Source: a virus
Virus record (IMG/VR): IMGVR_UViG_3300049911_000129
Span: 35,995-99,994 of that record
Direction: 5' to 3' (one strand)
DNA length: 64,000 nucleotides
In this document: positions 47,491 through 61,082 of the stretch, in pieces
How positions within the stretch are numbered: position 1 is the first letter of the stretch
Layout of the letters: every line of letters starts with the position of its first letter
The notes under the pieces: generated by a model
The model's database searches: none
What the model was told of the DNA's origin: nothing
Seen by the model: the letters and a program-made list of their open reading frames with translations, nothing else
Position numbers and translations under genes: made by a program

Positions 47491-47503
47491 GTGGTATAAT
47501 AAG
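47491..47503 (+). promoter_or_regulatory. GGTATAAT promoter before structured RNA 1
   Basis: TGGTATAAT (TATAAT 47495-47500), extended -10, no -35 consensus. Transcription from it would begin about 10 bases before the outer stem of the RNA. Confidence 0.6.
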
Positions 47504-47506
47504 GAT

Positions 47507-47671
47507 GACGCATTGGCAGGGAGGCCAGGGTAAGGGGGCGAGGGCGAAGGACTACTGGTCCTACCTAGTAGCCGTGCCGAAGAGGCACAGGCCCTCCCTG
47601 CGGGCATTCTAGTGCAAAACGGGTAGCTGACCCGATGTAGCCCCCCGCAGGTGTCCAGACGGTCTTCCGTC
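47507..47671 (+). ncRNA. Structured RNA 1 (new family candidate)
   Basis: Outer stem of 9 perfect pairs: 47516-47524 with 47593-47601. Inside are the core GGCGAGGGCGAAG (47537-47549), hairpin P2 (47552-47571, CTACT/AGTAG plus two pairs) and hairpin P3 (GTGCC/GGCAC, 47574-47588). Two further perfect 5-bp hairpins follow at 47620-47634 and 47658-47671; their membership is unsure. The same plan recurs at 51188-51289 with compensatory change. A 35-codon ORF (47505-47612) covers most of it but starts only 4 bases after the -10. Confidence 0.6.
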
Positions 47672-47696
47672 ATCGCCCCTCGAAGAAGGGTACGGT

Positions 47697-48104
47697 ATGA
47701 GGCTAGTGGCAGTCAAGGGGATACTGGTTAGACTGGTCGCTGCGGCGGCCATTTTGGCGTCTGCGGCGCTCGGGAGCGGCTGCTTCGGAGTCACTTCGGA
47801 GTTCCTCCGGGGCTACAGGGACGGTGCCGGTCCGGTCGAGCACGAGATGCACCTGGTCATGGACGTCATCCCGTGCGAGAGCGAGTGGATCTCGGACAAG
47901 GTCAGCCCGGCCTACCAACGGGGGTTGGCGCAGTTTACGGATGGGACATGGGCGGCCTACGCGCGGTTTGGGGCTGAGACGGACTGGCGGGACCCGTACG
48001 AGCAGGGCTGGGCGGTGGCTAACCTACTCAACGGCCTGCGGGACATTGGGCTGGAACCCTGGTCGACGCAGGGGTGGCCATGGTGCTGGTTGGAGGGACT
48101 GTAG
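47697..48104 (+). CDS. Secreted lysozyme/SLT-like endolysin with lipoprotein-type signal
   Basis: 135 residues. Basic N-terminus, hydrophobic stretch (about 8-26) ending L-G-S-G-C, a lipobox-like or signal-peptidase site. The mature part has P-C-E-S-E-W (catalytic-type Glu), G-L-A-Q-F and N-L-L, as in goose-type/SLT lysozymes. An exported endolysin would not need a large holin pore. First of a lysis run. Confidence 0.7.
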   Translation: MRLVAVKGILVRLVAAAAILASAALGSGCFGVTSEFLRGYRDGAGPVEHEMHLVMDVIPCESEWISDKVSPAYQRGLAQFTDGTWAAYARFGAETDWRDPYEQGWAVANLLNGLRDIGLEPWSTQGWPWCWLEGL

Positions 48105-48106
48105 GA

Positions 48107-48370
48107 ATGAAGACCGGTGGCCTATACATCGATGCGGATGGCGTCTCGGTACCGGTGGCGCATAACATCAGGGCGGCCCCTCACGGGGTTCAGGTCAAGG
48201 CGGGCGCGACGTGGGTCCCTGAGAAGCCGGCTGGGCCAGGCGCACGATTCGGTCCGAACGGTGTGGACCCGGGTCGGTCGGTCAACGGGGTGGATCCAGG
48301 CTCGTCGGTCAACGGGCCGCAGGGTCCCGACGGCATCAGGGGTCCCGACGGCGTTAGGTGTGATGACTGA
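48107..48370 (+). CDS. Small protein (87 aa) with collagen-like tail
   Basis: First half beta-type; from about residue 45 there are repeats of G-V-D-P-G-x-S-V-N and G-P-D-G. Possibly a small virion decoration. The Gly-Pro repeats recall the fibre gene at 63413. Confidence 0.55.
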   Translation: MKTGGLYIDADGVSVPVAHNIRAAPHGVQVKAGATWVPEKPAGPGARFGPNGVDPGRSVNGVDPGSSVNGPQGPDGIRGPDGVRCDD

Positions 48371-48483
48371 TGGATAACGACGACGCGGTCGTGTGGTGCG
48401 TGGTCGTCACGTTGACGGCCGCGGCCGTTCTGCTGGCGGGGTGCCTCGCCGCGATCTGGTGGAGCCTCCCGCTCGGGGGTTGA
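48370..48483 (+). CDS. Single-span membrane peptide (37 aa), holin or spanin candidate
   Basis: TGATG overlap. Acidic first five residues, then a 25-residue hydrophobic helix containing a Cys, then a short end. Size and neighbours suggest a lysis role; not proven. Confidence 0.55.
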   Translation: MDNDDAVVWCVVVTLTAAAVLLAGCLAAIWWSLPLGG

Positions 48484-48485
48484 GC

Positions 48486-48818
48486 ATGATAAGGCTGGTG
48501 GCCCAGCTGGCGCGCGGGTTCGCGCGCTACGTTGGTCTGACGTGGATCCTGGGGTTCGGCGGCATGGCGCTAGCGGCCGCCGGTAGGAGGGACCTCGCCG
48601 GACTCATGTGGGTGTCGCTCGGCGCCGGTAGCGTCGGGGTGGCGTTCGACCGCGCGACCGCTGGCGACTTGCATTTTGACAAGGTGCGCCACGGGTCGTT
48701 GACTGAGGAGGAGGTCGACTTCCTGGTTGGTCATCTGCCGTTCCTCGCGCTCGGGCTCCTGGCCTTGGCGGTCGGGGAGGGGCGCAAGTACGGACGGGAG
48801 GGTGGCCGAGAGGCTTAA
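48486..48818 (+). CDS. Membrane protein (110 aa), holin-like
   Basis: Hydrophobic segments near 15-32, 38-52 and 82-96, ending in a charged basic tail, the usual plan of class I holins. Its last 23 bases form the 5' end of tRNA-Ser(GCT). Confidence 0.55.
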   Translation: MIRLVAQLARGFARYVGLTWILGFGGMALAAAGRRDLAGLMWVSLGAGSVGVAFDRATAGDLHFDKVRHGSLTEEEVDFLVGHLPFLALGLLALAVGEGRKYGREGGREA

Positions 48819-48883
48819 GGCGCCGCGTTGCTAGCGCGGAGGTCCGAAAGGGCACGGGGGTTCGAATCCCTCCCCTTCCGCCA
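48796..48883 (+). tRNA. tRNA-Ser(GCT)
   Basis: Acceptor GGGAGGG/CCCTTCC, anticodon loop TTGCTAG, long variable arm, GTTCGAAT T-loop, encoded CCA. Overlaps the end of the upstream membrane-protein gene. Confidence 0.9.
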
Positions 48884-48900
48884 TGAGAGGAGCGGTAGCG

Positions 48901-49041
48901 ATGGCTAACCTATGCGGCAAGTGCAATGGTCCGGCTATCATGAAGATGACGGACGGCAAGGCCACGGTCAAGGTCTGCGCGTACCACTGGCATATGCTGT
49001 CTGGGCAGGGCTGGAAGCAGGTCTACCCGAAGGGGCGGTAG
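48901..49041 (+). CDS. Small zinc-ribbon-like protein (46 aa)
   Basis: ATG with GGAGCGG upstream. C-G-K-C, then C-A-Y-H-W-H, a small metal site. Its last 10 bases are the start of tRNA-Asp, so gene and tRNA share sequence. Confidence 0.6.
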   Translation: MANLCGKCNGPAIMKMTDGKATVKVCAYHWHMLSGQGWKQVYPKGR

Positions 49042-49106
49042 CTCAGAGGCAGAGCGCCCGGCTGTCGACCGGGAGGTCGCGGGTTCGATGCCCGTCCGCC
49101 CCGCCA
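49032..49106 (+). tRNA. tRNA-Asp(GTC)
   Basis: Acceptor GGGGCGG/CCGCCCC, loop CTGTCGA, T-loop TTCGATG, encoded CCA. Confidence 0.92.
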
Positions 49107-49109
49107 AGT

Positions 49110-49199
49110 TGGGGAGTGGCCGAGTCTGGGTTATGGCGACCGTCTCGAAAACGGTTGGTCCGAAAGGGCACGGGGGTTCGAATCCCTCCTCCCCAGCCA
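49110..49199 (+). tRNA. tRNA-Ser(CGA)
   Basis: Acceptor TGGGGAG/CTCCCCA, loop CTCGAAA, long variable arm sharing GGTCCGAAAGGGCAC with the first Ser tRNA, CCA encoded. Confidence 0.9.
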
Positions 49200-49208
49200 T
49201 TATGATGA

Positions 49209-49286
49209 CACCGTCCCGCAACGGACGAGGCTTAGGGCGGTAACCAGTCCGCATGGGAAGCGAGCGGTTGACCAGGGGCGGTGCCA
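49209..49286 (+). ncRNA. Structured element A in the tRNA array, not a standard tRNA
   Basis: Nine-pair outer stem CACCGTCCC (49209-49217) with GGGGCGGTG (49275-49283), one G-T pair, directly followed by CCA. No T-arm consensus. Contains GGACGAGGCTTAG (49223-49235), close to the core of structured RNAs 1 and 2, and a GCGG/CCGC hairpin. The inside fold is only partly clear. Confidence 0.45.
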
Positions 49287-49289
49287 GTG

Positions 49290-49366
49290 GCCGGAGTAGC
49301 TCAAGTGGGGAGAGCGGCTGTCTTGTAAACAGCGGGTTGGGGGTTCGAGGCCCTCCTCCGGCTCCA
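49290..49366 (+). tRNA. tRNA-Thr(TGT)
   Basis: Acceptor GCCGGAG/CTCCGGC, loop CTTGTAA, CCA encoded. Confidence 0.92.
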
Positions 49367-49377
49367 GTATGGTGCGG

Positions 49378-49453
49378 TGCGGGGTGGAGCAATGGTTAGC
49401 TCGGCGGCCTCATAAGCCGTAGGTTGAGGGTTCGAATCCCTCCCCCGCTACCA
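49378..49453 (+). tRNA. tRNA-Met(CAT)
   Basis: Loop CTCATAA, CCA encoded. T1-T72 mismatch and an A11-T24 pair are initiator traits, but the anticodon stem lacks three G-C pairs. Initiator, elongator or lysidine-type Ile cannot be separated. Confidence 0.88.
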
Positions 49454-49456
49454 CAA

Positions 49457-49533
49457 GCCGAGGTAGCTCAGCTAGGTAGAGCGCCTGGTTGAAGGCCAGG
49501 GCGTCGGCGGTCCGATTCCGTCCCTCGGCACCA
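49457..49533 (+). tRNA. tRNA-Phe(GAA)
   Basis: Acceptor GCCGAGG/CCTCGGC, loop TTGAAGG, CCA encoded. Confidence 0.92.
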
Positions 49534-49534
49534 A

Positions 49535-49613
49535 GGGCCCGTAGCTCAGTTGGATTCAGAGCGCCTGCCTTCGAAGCAGGGCGTCGGGGGTTCGAGTCCC
49601 TCCGGGCCTTCCA
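49535..49613 (+). tRNA. tRNA-Arg(TCG)
   Basis: Acceptor GGGCCCG/CGGGCCT with a terminal G-T pair, loop CTTCGAA, CCA encoded. Confidence 0.9.
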
Positions 49614-49614
49614 T

Positions 49615-49690
49615 AGGGGCGTAGCTCAATTGGGAGAGTGCCTGTTTTACAAGCAGGAAGTTGGGGGTTCGACTCCCTCCGCCCCTACCA
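49615..49690 (+). tRNA. tRNA-Val(TAC)
   Basis: Acceptor AGGGGCG/CGCCCCT, loop TTTACAA, CCA encoded. Confidence 0.92.
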
Positions 49691-49691
49691 C

Positions 49692-49766
49692 GGGCCGGTA
49701 GCTTAATGGGAGAGCGGGTGCCCTGCAAGCATTCAGGCGGGAGTTCGAATCTCCCCCGGTCCACCA
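49692..49766 (+). tRNA. tRNA-Ala(TGC)
   Basis: Acceptor GGGCCGG/CCGGTCC, loop CCTGCAA. The G3-T70 wobble in the acceptor is the alanine identity signal. Confidence 0.9.
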
Positions 49767-49779
49767 TCTTAACAAACGT

Positions 49780-49856
49780 GGCTCTCTAGCCCAATTGGTA
49801 GAGGCATCTGCCTTAGAAGCAGATCAGTCAGAGTTCGAATCTCTGGGGGGCCACCA
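49780..49856 (+). tRNA. tRNA with anticodon TAG (Leu), short variable loop
   Basis: Acceptor GGCTCTC/GGGGGCC with several G-T pairs, six-pair anticodon stem, loop CTTAGAA. The variable loop has only about five bases, whereas bacterial Leu tRNAs have a long arm. Shares its D-arm with the tRNA at 50480. Confidence 0.8.
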
Positions 49857-49859
49857 TGA

Positions 49860-49936
49860 GCGCCAGTAGTTCAATTAGGTAGAGCGCCTGCCCTCCAAGC
49901 AGGTTGTTGGGGGTTCGATTCCCCCCTGGCGCTCCA
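49860..49936 (+). tRNA. tRNA-Gly(TCC)
   Basis: Acceptor GCGCCAG/CTGGCGC, loop CCTCCAA, CCA encoded. Confidence 0.9.
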
Positions 49937-49938
49937 GT

Positions 49939-50013
49939 GCGGGGGTAGCTCAGCGGCAGAGCGCCTGCTTGCCATGCAGGAGGTCGTGGGTTCGAGCCCC
50001 ATTCCCCGCTCCA
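49939..50013 (+). tRNA. tRNA-Gly(GCC)
   Basis: Acceptor GCGGGGG/TCCCCGC, loop TTGCCAT, CCA encoded. Confidence 0.92.
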
Positions 50014-50014
50014 G

Positions 50015-50091
50015 AGGCGGGTAGCTCAGTCTGGTAGAGCAACGGCCTTATAAGCCGTATGTCGGAGGTCCGATTCCTCCCCCGCCTACCA
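50015..50091 (+). tRNA. tRNA-Ile(TAT)
   Basis: Acceptor AGGCGGG/CCCGCCT, loop CTTATAA. Reads ATA, a codon host cells often read poorly. Confidence 0.9.
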
Positions 50092-50167
50092 GGGCCGGTA
50101 GCTCAGAGGATAGAGCGGCGGTTTCCTAAACCGCGGGTCGCGGGTTCGAGTCCCGCTCGGCCTTCCA
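50092..50167 (+). tRNA. tRNA-Arg(CCT)
   Basis: Acceptor GGGCCGG/TCGGCCT with terminal wobble pairs, loop TTCCTAA. Starts at the base after the previous CCA. Reads AGG, which is frequent in these phage genes. Confidence 0.9.
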
Positions 50168-50168
50168 G

Positions 50169-50243
50169 AGGCGGGTAGCTCAAAGGCAGAGCAGGGGTCT
50201 GATATGCCTCAGGTTGGAGGTTCGAGCCCTCCCTCGCCTACCA
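50169..50243 (+). tRNA. tRNA-Ile(GAT)
   Basis: Acceptor AGGCGGG/CTCGCCT, loop CTGATAT, anticodon stem with wobble pairs, CCA encoded. Confidence 0.88.
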
Positions 50244-50246
50244 CCC

Positions 50247-50321
50247 ACCGGGGTGGCGCAATGGTAGCGCGGCTCCCTGTTAAGGAGACGGTTGCAGGTC
50301 CGAGTCCTGCCCCCGGTGCCA
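50247..50321 (+). tRNA. tRNA-Asn(GTT)
   Basis: Acceptor ACCGGGG/CCCCGGT, loop CTGTTAA, CCA encoded. Confidence 0.92.
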
Positions 50322-50322
50322 A

Positions 50323-50396
50323 GGCCCGCTCGTCTAAGGGCAGGATGCCTCCCCCTCAAGGAGGCGGTGTCGGTTCGAATCCGGCGCGGGCTACCA
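50323..50396 (+). tRNA. tRNA-Glu(CTC)
   Basis: Acceptor GGCCCGC/GCGGGCT, loop CCCTCAA, CCA encoded. Confidence 0.9.
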
Positions 50397-50404
50397 ATAA
50401 GATC

Positions 50405-50471
50405 GCGGGGGACTGTGCGAGGCCGGGGGTACGCGACCCCGGTACGAGGGTAAACTCCCTCCAGCCCCCCA
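50405..50471 (+). ncRNA. Structured element B in the tRNA array, not a standard tRNA
   Basis: G-run 50407-50411 can pair with the C-run 50465-50470. Inside are GCGAGGC (50417-50423), a perfect CCGGGG/CCCCGG hairpin (50423-50442) and a perfect GAGGG/CCCTC hairpin (50446-50461). No anticodon arm or T-loop can be drawn. The order outer stem, GCGAGG core, two hairpins is the same as in structured RNAs 1 and 2. Confidence 0.5.
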
Positions 50472-50479
50472 TCATAGTT

Positions 50480-50556
50480 GGCGTCGTAGCCCAATTGGCA
50501 GAGGCACCGGCTTCAAGACCCGGACAGTGCAGGTTCGAATCCTGCGGGCGCCACCA
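50480..50556 (+). tRNA. tRNA with anticodon CAA (Leu), short variable loop
   Basis: Loop TTCAAGA with a C-C mismatch closing the stem; D-arm almost identical to the tRNA at 49780. No long variable arm. The acceptor's seventh pair is G-G. Leucine identity is uncertain. Confidence 0.75.
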
Positions 50557-50557
50557 T

Positions 50558-50633
50558 ACGGACGTGGCTCAGCGGCGAGAGCGGCCGTCTCCAAAACGGC
50601 TGGTCGGAGGTTCGAGTCCTCCCGTCCGTGCCA
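50558..50633 (+). tRNA. tRNA-Trp(CCA)
   Basis: Acceptor ACGGACG/CGTCCGT, loop CTCCAAA, CCA encoded. Confidence 0.92.
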
Positions 50634-50708
50634 GGGGGCGTAGCTCAGCGGTAGAGCGGCGGACTCTTAATCCGCGCGGCGGGGGTTCGAATCCCTCCGC
50701 CCCTACCA
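50634..50708 (+). tRNA. tRNA-Lys(CTT)
   Basis: Acceptor GGGGGCG/CGCCCCT, loop CTCTTAA. Begins at the base after the previous CCA. Confidence 0.92.
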
Positions 50709-50709
50709 T

Positions 50710-50784
50710 CAGCGCGGTAGTGTAAGGGTAGCACGATAGGTTGTGGCCCTGTTAGTGCGGGTTCGAATCCCGCCCCGCTGACCA
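50710..50784 (+). tRNA. tRNA-His(GTG)
   Basis: Loop TTGTGGC. Position -1 is T facing A73 instead of the usual G-1/C73, and the acceptor has a C-C mismatch at pair 6. CCA encoded. Confidence 0.85.
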
Positions 50785-50785
50785 T

Positions 50786-50859
50786 TCTGGGGTAGTTTAG
50801 AGGTAGAACGGGTGGCCCTGGACCATCAGGCGGAGGTTCGAGTCCTTCCCCCAGAGCCA
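50786..50859 (+). tRNA. tRNA-Pro(TGG), copy 1
   Basis: Acceptor TCTGGGG/CCCCAGA, loop CCCTGGA, CCA encoded. Confidence 0.9.
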
Positions 50860-50874
50860 GGAATCGAGGCGTAT

Positions 50875-51066
50875 ATGCGAGAGTTGGTGGTCGTCTTGGT
50901 CGCGGCGTCGGCGGCGGCGCTCCTCGCCCGGTGGATGTGGGATGCGCTGGTGACGAAGTGGCTGCTGTGGCTGGTCATGGACAGCGGCATCCCGCTGGGC
51001 CGGGCAGGGCCGTGGGTGTTCGCGCTGGCCATAGGGCGGTGGCCGCACAAGAGGCCGAGCGGGTAG
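50875..51066 (+). CDS. Small membrane protein (63 aa) inside the tRNA array
   Basis: ATG 50875 chosen because the upstream frame is tRNA-Pro. Hydrophobic residues 4-20 and 27-36, then a Trp/Pro-rich end. No family recognised. Confidence 0.6.
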   Translation: MRELVVVLVAASAAALLARWMWDALVTKWLLWLVMDSGIPLGRAGPWVFALAIGRWPHKRPSG

Positions 51067-51069
51067 CGT

Positions 51070-51147
51070 CTGGGCGTAGCTCAGTCAGGGCAGAGCTCCT
51101 GGCTTGGGACCAGGGGGCCGGCGGTTCGAATCCGTCCGCCCAGACCA
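51070..51147 (+). tRNA. tRNA-Pro(TGG), copy 2
   Basis: Acceptor CTGGGCG/CGCCCAG, loop CTTGGGA. Same anticodon as copy 1 but a different body, so not a recent duplicate. Confidence 0.9.
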
Positions 51148-51154
51148 CAACTGC

Positions 51155-51165
51155 GGTATAATATA
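51155..51165 (+). promoter_or_regulatory. GGTATAAT promoter before structured RNA 2
   Basis: TGCGGTATAATATA, with TATAAT at 51157-51162. Mirrors the promoter in front of structured RNA 1. Confidence 0.6.
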
Positions 51166-51168
51166 GAT

Positions 51169-51295
51169 GGAAGGGAACCGCCCGATGGCAGCGGGGGTGA
51201 GGCAGGGCGAGGCGAAGCGCCCTCGAGGCGCTCTCAATCGGTTGCCGAACCGGCCTGGTGGATGAGTCAGGGAAGTCCTGCCCCCCTGCACGATG
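51169..51295 (+). ncRNA. Structured RNA 2 (homologue of structured RNA 1)
   Basis: Outer stem of 9 pairs with one bulged C: 51188-51191 and 51193-51197 with 51281-51289, extended by CAGG (51203-51206) with CCTG (51277-51280). Core GGGCGAGGCGAAG (51205-51217), hairpin P2 AGCGCC/GGCGCT (51216-51232) and hairpin P3 CGGTT/AACCG (51239-51252). Compared with RNA 1 the outer stem carries an A-T to G-C exchange, a compensatory change. No convincing ORF covers the element. Confidence 0.6.
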
Positions 51296-51297
51296 AT

Positions 51298-51328
51298 GGG
51301 CCGTTGGCCGAGCGGCTGAAGAGGTAAC
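51298..51328 (+). pseudogene. Possible 5' half of a class II tRNA, truncated at the HNH gene
   Basis: TTGGCCGAGCGGCTGAAG (51304-51321) looks like the end of an acceptor stem plus a Ser/Leu-type D-arm. No matching anticodon arm or T-arm follows; the HNH start codon comes two bases later. It may be a tRNA broken by the nuclease gene. Confidence 0.35.
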
Positions 51329-51329
51329 A

Positions 51330-51755
51330 ATGACGGGGCGTAAGGACGCAGTTCTCGGGATGGCGCACGGTACGGCCTGCGGTCGGCTGCGGAAGGCGGT
51401 GCTATTCTCCCTGATTCAGCAACTCGGATTGGCCGCCTGCGCGCGGTGCGGCGGCGAGATTGCGTCGGCGGAGGAGCTCTCGCTCGACCACGTGGTCGAT
51501 TGGGAGGGGGCAGAAGACCCGTGTGGTGTATTCTTCGATCTCGACAACGTGACGTTCAGTCATTTGGCCTGTAACAACAGGGCGCGCTCCAAGCGCGAGT
51601 ACTGCGCGAAGGGGCACGCGTATACCAGCGCGGGAGTATTGGAGCGGGGCTCCGATGGAGTAGTGCGTCGCCGGTGTGGCATTTGCAAACGGGCGGCGAA
51701 TCGAGATAGCATGCAGCGGATCCGTGGCAGAGTGGCCGATTGCGGCAGCCTGTAG
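51330..51755 (+). CDS. HNH endonuclease, probably a homing nuclease
   Basis: 141 residues. C-x-x-C near residue 38, L-D-H-V-V-D-W (HNH His), N at V-T-F-S-H and H-L-A-C-N-N-R complete the His-Me finger; further C-x-x-C pairs near the end bind zinc. No intron partner is visible, so it is a free-standing gene between structured RNA 2 and tRNA-Tyr. Its last 38 bases are also tRNA-Tyr. Confidence 0.75.
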   Translation: MTGRKDAVLGMAHGTACGRLRKAVLFSLIQQLGLAACARCGGEIASAEELSLDHVVDWEGAEDPCGVFFDLDNVTFSHLACNNRARSKREYCAKGHAYTSAGVLERGSDGVVRRRCGICKRAANRDSMQRIRGRVADCGSL

Positions 51756-51807
51756 AGCTGCTCTCCTTAACTGGGGCGCGCCTGTTCGAATCGGGCCGGA
51801 TCCACCA
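51718..51807 (+). tRNA. tRNA-Tyr(GTA)
   Basis: Acceptor GGATCCG/CGGATCC, loop CTGTAGA, long variable arm as in bacterial Tyr tRNAs, CCA encoded. Overlaps the 3' end of the HNH gene. Confidence 0.9.
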
Positions 51808-51856
51808 ATAACGTAGGGCCTTCACGGCCCACCAACAAGGAAAGGCGCGCGGGCAC

Positions 51857-52708
51857 ATGGGTGCGATGGTATTCAACACGAGGGCGCTGGGGCGCTTCTG
51901 GTACTGGATCGAGGAGCGGCACCGCATCTACATGAAGCGTCAGGCCGGCGAGCTGGCCCCGTGGACGCTCGACCCGGTGCTGCGCGACTACTTCTTCTGC
52001 AACGTCTTCAGGGAGCTGGACCCGGGGACCGTGTGGCTCAGGCAGGGCTGGACCGACCGGCACGGGTACGGGTCCGACGCGTTCGACGGCCCGACGCTCC
52101 TGTTCAACATCATCAAGTACCGGCTGTTCGGGACCGAGCGCGCCGGGGCGGCACTCGGCTACCAGACTGCGTGGGACGACTCCATGGCGGCCATCACCAC
52201 CCGACTGCTCACCCAGGCGCGGATGGACGGGCCGATCTACACGGCGGCCTACATGCACTCCGGCGGGCTGGCGGACCACGTCAAGCTGCTCGGCGACGTC
52301 TGGGCAGACAGGCACAACCTCTACGGGAGGATCGTCGCGGACCGCACGATCCAGGGGGCGACGAAGATCCTGACGGAGATCCCGCACTTCGGGCCGTTCA
52401 TGGCGTACGAGGTGGCCACGGACCTCAGGCACACGCCGGTGCTGGACGGTGCGCCGGACACGATGACGTGGGCCAACCCGGGCCCAGGCTCCTGGCGCGG
52501 GCTGAGGAGGATCTTCCCATACGTCAGCAAGGCGGAGGCCGTGGCGGCGATGGCACTGCTGCTGCTCTGGTCGCAGAGCAAGCTGGCGGCCTACGTGCCG
52601 CCCCTCGAGATGCGCGACATCGAGCACAGCCTCTGCGAGTTCGACAAGTACGAGAGGGCCTCGCAGCCCGGCGTGGTCGGGCTGAGGCGGTATGGGGTGA
52701 AGGCATGA
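51857..52708 (+). CDS. DNA base hypermodification protein (HMUDK helical domain / aGPT-PPlase-like family)
   Basis: 283 residues. F-W-Y-W-I-E-E-R-H-R-I-Y near residue 13, P-W-T-L-D-P-V-L, C-N-V-F-R-E-L-D-P, and later F-G-P-F-M-A-Y-E-V are hallmarks of the helical, glycosylase-related family linked to 5-hydroxymethyluracil DNA kinases and thymidine hypermodification in phages. No P-loop kinase is attached; the kinase could be the protein at 27419. ATGA overlap with the RlaP-like gene. Which base is modified is not known. Confidence 0.75.
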   Translation: MGAMVFNTRALGRFWYWIEERHRIYMKRQAGELAPWTLDPVLRDYFFCNVFRELDPGTVWLRQGWTDRHGYGSDAFDGPTLLFNIIKYRLFGTERAGAALGYQTAWDDSMAAITTRLLTQARMDGPIYTAAYMHSGGLADHVKLLGDVWADRHNLYGRIVADRTIQGATKILTEIPHFGPFMAYEVATDLRHTPVLDGAPDTMTWANPGPGSWRGLRRIFPYVSKAEAVAAMALLLLWSQSKLAAYVPPLEMRDIEHSLCEFDKYERASQPGVVGLRRYGVKA

Positions 52709-59511: not shown

Positions 59512-59910
59512 GTGGGCAAGCTACTGCTTCTGAAGGTCTTCTACCTGTCCGGCGGCTTTTACTCCGGGTGGCAGCAGCGGCTCATGCGCGAGTGCGCTGG
59601 GCTCAGGGCGGTCAACCCGGAGACCGACGGCAGGCAGAACGCCATCTACGCCTTCGTGGAGGATGACCTGTCGGCCATAGACGCCGCGGACGGCGTCATC
59701 GCGAGGTGGGACGCCTACCCGCACGTGGAGGGTATGATAGCTGAGGTCGGGTACGCGACCGCGAAGGGCAAGCCGGTGCTGCTGATCCTGGACGGCGTGG
59801 AGGTGCCGAATGCCTTCGTCCTCGGGCTGGCCAAGCGGGTCTTCGTGGGCATGGACGCGTTCATCGCCTGGTGGAACGGTAGGGTACACACTAAGGCAGG
59901 TGTGATGTGA
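59512..59910 (+). CDS. Nucleoside 2-deoxyribosyltransferase-like protein, copy 2
   Basis: 132 residues, GTG start. Y-L-S-G-G-F-Y-S-G-W-Q near residue 11, D-x-x-x-I-D-x-A-D, E-V-G-Y-A-T-A-K-G-K-P-V with the catalytic-type Glu. Similar fold to the protein at 29651 but different sequence. Could act on nucleotides or RNA ends; placed directly before RtcB. Confidence 0.65.
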   Translation: MGKLLLLKVFYLSGGFYSGWQQRLMRECAGLRAVNPETDGRQNAIYAFVEDDLSAIDAADGVIARWDAYPHVEGMIAEVGYATAKGKPVLLILDGVEVPNAFVLGLAKRVFVGMDAFIAWWNGRVHTKAGVM

Positions 59911-61082
59911 GAGTGATTCCGAAGAGCAACACCCAGGGTCCGTGCGTGGACATATACAATTGGGCTGACGACATCGAGGGCGGCGCACTCGAGCAGGCGT
60001 TCAACATCGCAAAGCTCCCGTTCGCGTTCCACCACGTGGCCGTCATGGCCGACGGGCACCAGGGATTCGGCATGCCGATCGGCGGCGTGCTTGCGACGCG
60101 CGGGGTGATAGTCCCGAACGCGGTCGGCGTCGACATCGGCTGCGGGATGGCGGCCGTCAGGACCAACCTGTTCGACTACGACCTCCAGCCGGACGCGCTC
60201 AAGCAGGTCATGGCGATCGTGCGCGGGACGGTGCCGCTCGGCCTCGGCCAGCGGCAGGCGGAGCCGCAGGACTGGGAGGGGTTCGACCGCGCCCCGCGCC
60301 TGTTCGTCATCCAGCGGCAGCTGGAGGCGGCCAGGAAGCAGCTCGGGACGCTCGGTGCGGGCAACCACTTCATCGAGATACAGGCCGAGGAGCACGGACC
60401 GGTATGGGTGATGGTCCACTCCGGCAGCCGCAACTTCGGGCTGCAGGTCGCCGGCGAGTACCACAAGGCGGCCAAAGTCATGTGCGAGCGCTGGCACTCC
60501 AAGATCCCGACGCCCGACCTGGCGTTCCTGCCGATAGAGACGCTGGAGGGCAAGGACTATCTGGAGGGCATGGGATACTGCCTGGAGTTCGCCAGGGAGA
60601 ACCGCGCCGTCATGATGCGGCACGTCATCGAGGCGCTCGATCAGATCACTGGCGCGGTGCGTGTCGTGGTGTCGCTTGACGTCCACCACAACTACGCCCG
60701 CTGGGAGCAGCACTACGGGCAGAGCGTCCTCGTCCACCGGAAGGGTGCGACGTATGCGGGCGCCGGGTCGGTTGGCATCATACCCGGCTCGATGGGCACC
60801 GCGAGCTACATCGTCCGCGGGCTTGGCAGCCAGGCGAGTTTCGACTCGTGTTCGCACGGGGCTGGCAGGCGCATGAGCAGGACGGCGGCGAGGCGGGACC
60901 TCGACCTCAACCTTGAGCAGGCCAAGATGACGGCGCTCGGGGTGGTCGGCGGGCCGCGGACGGCCGCGGACCTCGACGAGGCGCCCGGAGCGTACAAGGA
61001 CATAGACGTGGTCATGGCCGCGCAGAGGGACCTCGTGGAGGTCAGTAACAAGCTGCGGCCGCTGGCCAGTCTGAAGGGATAG
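59907..61082 (+). CDS. rtcB: RtcB RNA ligase
   Basis: 391 residues, GTGA overlap. V-G-V-D-I-G-C-G-M (metal Asp and Cys), G-A-G-N-H-F-I-E-I (Asn and His), H-S-G-S-R and the C-S-H-G-A-G-R loop with His317, which carries GMP in the reaction, are all present. It joins 2',3'-cyclic phosphate or 3'-phosphate to 5'-OH RNA ends, the ends left by anticodon nucleases. No archease gene is seen. Confidence 0.92.
   Translation: MRVIPKSNTQGPCVDIYNWADDIEGGALEQAFNIAKLPFAFHHVAVMADGHQGFGMPIGGVLATRGVIVPNAVGVDIGCGMAAVRTNLFDYDLQPDALKQVMAIVRGTVPLGLGQRQAEPQDWEGFDRAPRLFVIQRQLEAARKQLGTLGAGNHFIEIQAEEHGPVWVMVHSGSRNFGLQVAGEYHKAAKVMCERWHSKIPTPDLAFLPIETLEGKDYLEGMGYCLEFARENRAVMMRHVIEALDQITGAVRVVVSLDVHHNYARWEQHYGQSVLVHRKGATYAGAGSVGIIPGSMGTASYIVRGLGSQASFDSCSHGAGRRMSRTAARRDLDLNLEQAKMTALGVVGGPRTAADLDEAPGAYKDIDVVMAAQRDLVEVSNKLRPLASLKG

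Follow-up and report, generated by a model that had tools for sequence, protein, structure and literature searches.

Two apparently noncoding RNAs, possibly cis-acting leaders, behind phage promoter motifs around a tRNA array in a metagenomic phage

The IMG/VR virus record IMGVR_UViG_3300049911_000129 comprises 99,994 bases, and we analyzed its positions 35995-99994, a stretch of 64,000 nucleotides (nt) referred to here as the window, whose coordinates are used throughout. ARAGORN identified 24 tRNA genes in the window at 48796-51807. Two short candidate RNAs lie around this array: RNA1 (47516-47601) is located 1.2 kb upstream of the first tRNA, with open reading frames (ORFs) in between, and RNA2 (51188-51289) is flanked by tRNA-Pro and by what remains of the original tRNA-Tyr. 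All parts of RNA1, RNA2, and their promoters described below are on the + strand. A first-pass annotation of the bare sequence had presented the two as homologous structured RNAs, each behind its own promoter. Relatives of the phage under study (G000) were sought in IMG/VR by protein, with the terminase, the portal, a 222-amino-acid (aa) protein, a 46-aa array protein, and the SLT-like protein encoded downstream of RNA1. The only close kin found by these searches were G001 (55.5 kb, terminase 96% identical), the more distant G005 (106 kb, terminase 71% identical), and G004, a related 4-kb fragment. G005 carries a homologous array of 26 tRNAs, at a locus whose coordinates are prefixed L147; no tRNAs were found in G001, whose contig stops before the array. 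One scan of a genome collection returned no relatives, and the phage group is known only from metagenomes.

Each RNA does lie behind its own promoter motif. The -10 motif GGTATAAT is present at 47493-47500, where it is an extended -10 (TGGTATAAT), and at 51155-51162, and both RNAs begin at most ∼30 nt from it. The phage record holds five copies of GGTATAAT, all on the + strand, and no copy of the reversed control motif, and we consider it a credible promoter motif. The copy at RNA1 is invariant in G001, and GGTATTCT is found at the place in G005 that aligns with the copy at RNA2. Transcription is predicted to start at 47507 and 51169. The other three copies (10489, 22330, and 57759) directly precede protein genes, and the leaders that follow them fold no better than shuffled sequences (z +1.0, +0.2, and +0.5).

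RNA1 is present in one close relative, G001. The 5′ region that begins at the predicted transcription start and reaches up to the SLT-like start codon (47507-47696) is ∼90% identical there and contains frame-breaking indels. Promoter and leader together differ at 7 of 114 nt (6%), with another 9 differences in the next 89 nt, compared to 8 of the 34 nt directly upstream of the promoter and 315 of 1348 fourfold sites (23%) in the flanking genes. The difference is significant (p = 3e-6 and 0.0025), and the low divergence starts exactly at the promoter. It extends past the RNA1 leader and into the SLT-like gene, covering the start codon and the first 31 codons; 1 of 20 fourfold sites differs in these codons, versus 22 of 52 in the remainder of the gene. 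The element, the start codon, and the downstream gene are thus conserved together, as expected for a cis leader. The protein itself (47697-48104) matches Pfam SLT below the cut-off and has a lipoprotein-like signal; between G000 and G001 the DNA of the signal part is nearly identical and that of the mature part is strongly diverged.

We rejected the 35-codon ORF at 47505 as a coding sequence. The seven substitutions between G000 and G001 fall at its codon positions 1, 3, 2, 2, 2, 2, and 2; for real genes of the two phages, divergence is 0.068, 0.048, and 0.176 at codon positions 1, 2, and 3. The frame of the ORF is also broken by one inserted nucleotide at 47594/47595; the shifted frame in G001, examined by eye, stays open into the downstream gene, which we take as chance. 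Conservation does not follow the codons of this ORF, in agreement with the first-pass view that the region is not protein coding, and both RNA1 and RNA2 are apparently noncoding.

Of 200 shuffled versions of RNA1 (47516-47601), 3 folded as well as the native sequence (z -2.6). The 9-pair outer stem that had been proposed for it stands in part: the 9-bp inverted repeat exists and gives the best fold in the window, beside competing inner structures, but it is damaged in G001, where a U stands opposite a C, one pair is a G-U wobble, and a U is inserted. The stem is no longer predicted in G001, whose best fold switches to another helix, and the comparison does not support it as a conserved element. 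A consensus fold of the two sequences contains a helix, P1, formed by GGG-GAGGGC of the core with GCCCUC-CCU, plus hairpins P0, P2, and P3. The core GGGCGAGGGCGAAG (47536-47549) would provide the 5′ strand of P1 and a joining GAAG; because the 3′ strand of P1 (47591-47599) uses the same bases as the 3′ arm of the 9-pair outer stem, the two predicted folds compete. In P0 (47514-47527), the outer pair, U-A in the window, is replaced by G-C in G001, a compensatory change, while an A-U pair of P2 (47549-47573) becomes G-U and a U-A pair of P3 (GUGCCgaagaGGCAC, 47574-47588, pairing probability ∼1.0) becomes U-G. All seven substitutions are compatible with the consensus fold, since two make up the compensated pair, a third falls in the loop of P0, a fourth fills a bulge, and the other three produce wobbles. 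At least one double change together with no broken pair occurred in 12% of simulated mutants (p ∼ 0.12), which backs the predicted fold weakly; we regard it as plausible, not proven.

RNA2, a structured spacer or leader between tRNA-Pro and the original tRNA-Tyr, has a syntenic counterpart in G005 (L147:6503-6606) that occupies the same tRNA-Pro/tRNA-Tyr slot and whose ends align with those of RNA2. The 8-bp helix P1b pairs GGCAGGGC (51201-51208) with GUCCUGCC (51275-51282) and recurs in G005 as GGCGGGAC/GUUCCGCC, with GUGA before it in both phages; the two versions differ by one compensated pair (A-U to G-C) and by two changes that each affect one strand only. A P1b-like helix was reproduced by 1 of 10,000 shuffles in a test that was framed after the helix had been seen, and P1b is slightly suboptimal in G005 (-40.5 versus -41.8 kcal/mol). 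The outer stem described for RNA2 does pair, but it is interrupted (7 bp, a 3-nt bulge, and 8 bp), and the best fold shows three inner hairpins rather than the two reported. MAFFT alignments of RNA1 with RNA2, and of RNA2 with its G005 counterpart, disregard the helices. Adjacent to RNA2, an insert interrupts the original tRNA-Tyr (51298-51324 and 51825-51834), a gene that is whole in G005. The insert carries a gene for an HNH endonuclease (51330-51755) and, at 51718-51807, a complete tRNA-Tyr that differs from the original; it is apparently a mobile element that supplies a tRNA to replace the one it disrupts.

The homology of RNA1 and RNA2 is not supported. The two do have a common 13-nt core, GGGCGAGGGCGAAG at 47536 and GGGCGAGGCGAAG at 51205-51217, which occurs in the window only at these two places. 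However, RNA2 is not found at E ≤ 10 by a covariance model built from RNA1; the model gives 125 bits for its two members, and its next hits are coding sequence at 19, 17, and 14 bits. Pairwise similarity is marginal (p 0.009 to 0.077 against shuffles over four scoring schemes), and MAFFT does not align the two cores. Since homology is unsupported and the outer stem is damaged in G001, the A-U versus G-C difference in the outer stems, once read as the mark of a conserved RNA, is not covariation between homologues. IMG/VR was scanned with two patterns, one joining promoter and core and the other an extended core, and the scans returned only G001 and apparent chance matches; none of the four other loci that they yielded has tRNAs or resembles the array. 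A blastn search of INPHARED with RNA1, RNA2, and an element at 50407-50469 gave no match. A candidate third homologue in G005 (L147:2281-2346) was rejected, as it lies inside a possible 76-codon GTG ORF (∼L147:2149-2380, by eye). The RNA1 slot in G005 (L147:2090-2440) holds this possible ORF, a promoter-like site, and a strong intrinsic terminator.

We therefore consider homology unproven and unlikely, and it is very improbable that RNA1 and RNA2 are paralogues within a single new RNA family. Such a family would account for the GGGCGAGG(G)CGAAG common to both, preceded in each by GGGT(A/G)AGG and placed at similar distances from the promoter, and for the p of 0.009 under one strict scoring scheme. 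It sits poorly with the failure of the RNA1 model to reach RNA2, with the outcome of the core scans, and with the core itself, which is a helix strand in RNA1, a joining region in RNA2, and absent from the G005 counterpart of RNA2. The fold had originally not been recognized as tmRNA, RNase P, 6S RNA, or a group I intron, and neither RNA matches an Rfam 15 covariance model. In the window, only tRNAs reached the Rfam gathering score, and only chance matches at E ≤ 10 fell over the two RNAs; the families not matched include the Y RNA families, GOLLD, and ROOL, and ARAGORN found no tmRNA, with its tRNA-like domain and tag ORF. Bacterial Y RNAs carry the motif GNCGAA(N)G in a stem, which GGCGAAG in both cores (GGCGAAGG and GGCGAAGC) resembles, and the phage encodes an RtcB RNA ligase at 59907-61082, so that Y RNA-like molecules scaffolding a Ro60 protein, in concert with the phage RtcB, can be envisaged. 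We rejected this extremely improbable reading because no TROVE domain was found in G000, G001, or G005 (records that may be incomplete, and a host Ro60 is possible), no Rfam match was obtained at E ≤ 10, and the motif is missing from the G005 counterpart of RNA2; in RNA1, moreover, the motif overlaps a helix strand.

Taken together, these data lead us to favor, tentatively, the reading that two separate transcripts around the tRNA array each begin with a noncoding, structured 5′ leader acting in cis, RNA1 in one and RNA2 in the other. Both transcripts would start at the GGTATAAT promoters. RNA1 would lead a transcript of small ORFs, beginning with the SLT-like secreted protein and running into the array, and RNA2 would lead a short tRNA-Tyr unit, now split by the HNH gene. 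The RNAs may act in cis while emerging from the polymerase, a fold near the 5′ end protecting the transcript; alternatively, they might help polymerase through the long untranslated region of tRNA genes, as the put RNAs of phage HK022 do, or control how accessible the first start codon is. No terminator-like site was found on the + strand between RNA1 and the array, nor after either RNA, which makes it improbable that RNA1 is a short RNA standing on its own. This lack of a downstream terminator, the closeness of both RNAs to promoters, and the conservation of RNA1 with the start of the following gene favor cis-acting leaders, and it also speaks for them that RNA2 keeps its tRNA-Pro/tRNA-Tyr position in G005 with a compensated helix.

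Several observations weigh against such leaders. Only two sequences exist for each RNA, and the RNA1 model did not find a homologue in G005. The consensus energy of RNA1 is unexceptional compared to random mutants (p = 0.43), and RNA2, contrary to its description as a structured fold, folds no better than shuffles (z -1.45 for 51188-51289 and -0.36 for 51169-51295). The other three GGTATAAT promoters are without such a leader, and the promoter class therefore does not require one. The low-divergence block in G001 could, finally, be a short recombination tract rather than a sign of constraint, which two sequences cannot separate.

These points bear on two further explanations. The RNAs might have no function as RNA, being spacers rich in GC whose folding reflects their composition, with a short word in common by chance and a similarity to G001 due to recombination. 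The z scores of RNA2 (-0.36 to -1.45), the marginal similarity of the two RNAs (p 0.01-0.08), the consensus energy of RNA1, and the continuation of the low-divergence block into coding sequence all fit this explanation. We nevertheless judge it rather unlikely, as RNA1 beats 197 of 200 shuffles, the block begins exactly at the promoter (p = 3e-6), and P1b of RNA2 recurs with compensation in G005. Alternatively, RNA1 and RNA2 could be independent, stable noncoding RNAs that are processed out of the array and act in trans, in the manner of the stable RNAs C and D of phage T4, or of GOLLD and ROOL. Their location beside a tRNA array, where GOLLD and ROOL are often found (PMC12286853), agrees with this, as do the RtcB genes of both larger phages and the presence in the array of at least one other structured non-tRNA element common to G005 (50407-50469; L147:4145-4207). 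However, no terminator follows either RNA, RNA1 is separated from the first tRNA by 1.2 kb that include ORFs, and in G001 the RNA1 homologue is tied to the start of the following gene and not to tRNAs; this explanation is, in our view, also unlikely.

The element at 50407-50469 is itself a better-supported conserved RNA than RNA1 or RNA2. It and L147:4145-4207 form three-way junctions with the same first helix, whose outer pair is G-C in one and A-U in the other, and their hairpins P2 and P3 differ in sequence yet are base-paired in both, so that the differences include compensatory changes. The joining stretches are similar (GCGAGG versus GCAAGU), with matching flanks, ATCGC and ATCAT, but the junctions stand at different places in the arrays, between Glu and Leu in the window and between Val and Ala in G005. 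A descriptor of the first helix matches only these two in the 4.46 Mb searched, duplicate loci and the reverse reading of the element aside, and the junction RNA has no Rfam match. We think it quite improbable that RNA1, RNA2, the three-way junction, and the G005 counterparts together represent a new kind of array-associated RNA with the joining sequence GCRAGK, which would make or guard the array tRNAs together with RtcB.

Other features of the arrays and their surroundings were noted. RtcB is also encoded in G005, and both larger phages carry large tRNA arrays; a possible role for RtcB beside them is tRNA repair against anticodon nucleases. Between tRNA-Ser and tRNA-Asp lies the gene for the 46-aa protein (48901-49041; L147:2825-2965 in G005), which is 85% identical in G005, has no Pfam match, and in IMG/VR is confined to this phage group. 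Two tRNA-sized stretches, 49206-49286 and L147:2701-2798, have long complementary ends followed by CCA and were called by neither ARAGORN nor Rfam; they might be decayed tRNAs or atypical ones. A 5-hmdU DNA kinase-like protein is encoded at 51857-52708.

Noncoding RNAs have been met repeatedly next to the tRNA arrays of phages and form a largely unexplained class, to which RNA1 and RNA2 would add small, promoter-proximal examples in a phage group seen only in metagenomes. The find is probably a modest one, of noncoding leaders kept in one relative each and not of a new RNA family. In phage T4, the stable RNAs C and D are small non-tRNA RNAs of unknown function within the tRNA cluster; the resemblance to them is one of description only, and the RNAs here, unlike them, have their own promoters. 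GOLLD and ROOL are likewise noncoding RNAs often located beside phage tRNA islands (PMC12286853), but they are much larger (many GOLLD RNAs exceed 800 nt) and have Rfam models, neither of which matches here. The closest working analogue appears to be HK022 put. Its two leader RNAs, putL and putR, are ∼70-100 nt long, each follow a phage promoter of their own, form stem-loops, and resemble each other somewhat in sequence (PMC9378689). The put RNAs suppress termination through the zinc-binding domain of the RNA polymerase β′ subunit. RNA1 and RNA2 also stand just downstream of a phage promoter, and the likeness is one of position, not of compared sequence. They differ from put, with its two stem-loops in ∼70 nt and its two similar copies, in having three or four helices and no demonstrable similarity to each other, and polymerase would meet no intrinsic terminator on its way from RNA1 to the array. 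Should they act as put-like leaders, they would offer a clue to how a phage gets several kilobases of untranslated tRNA genes transcribed.

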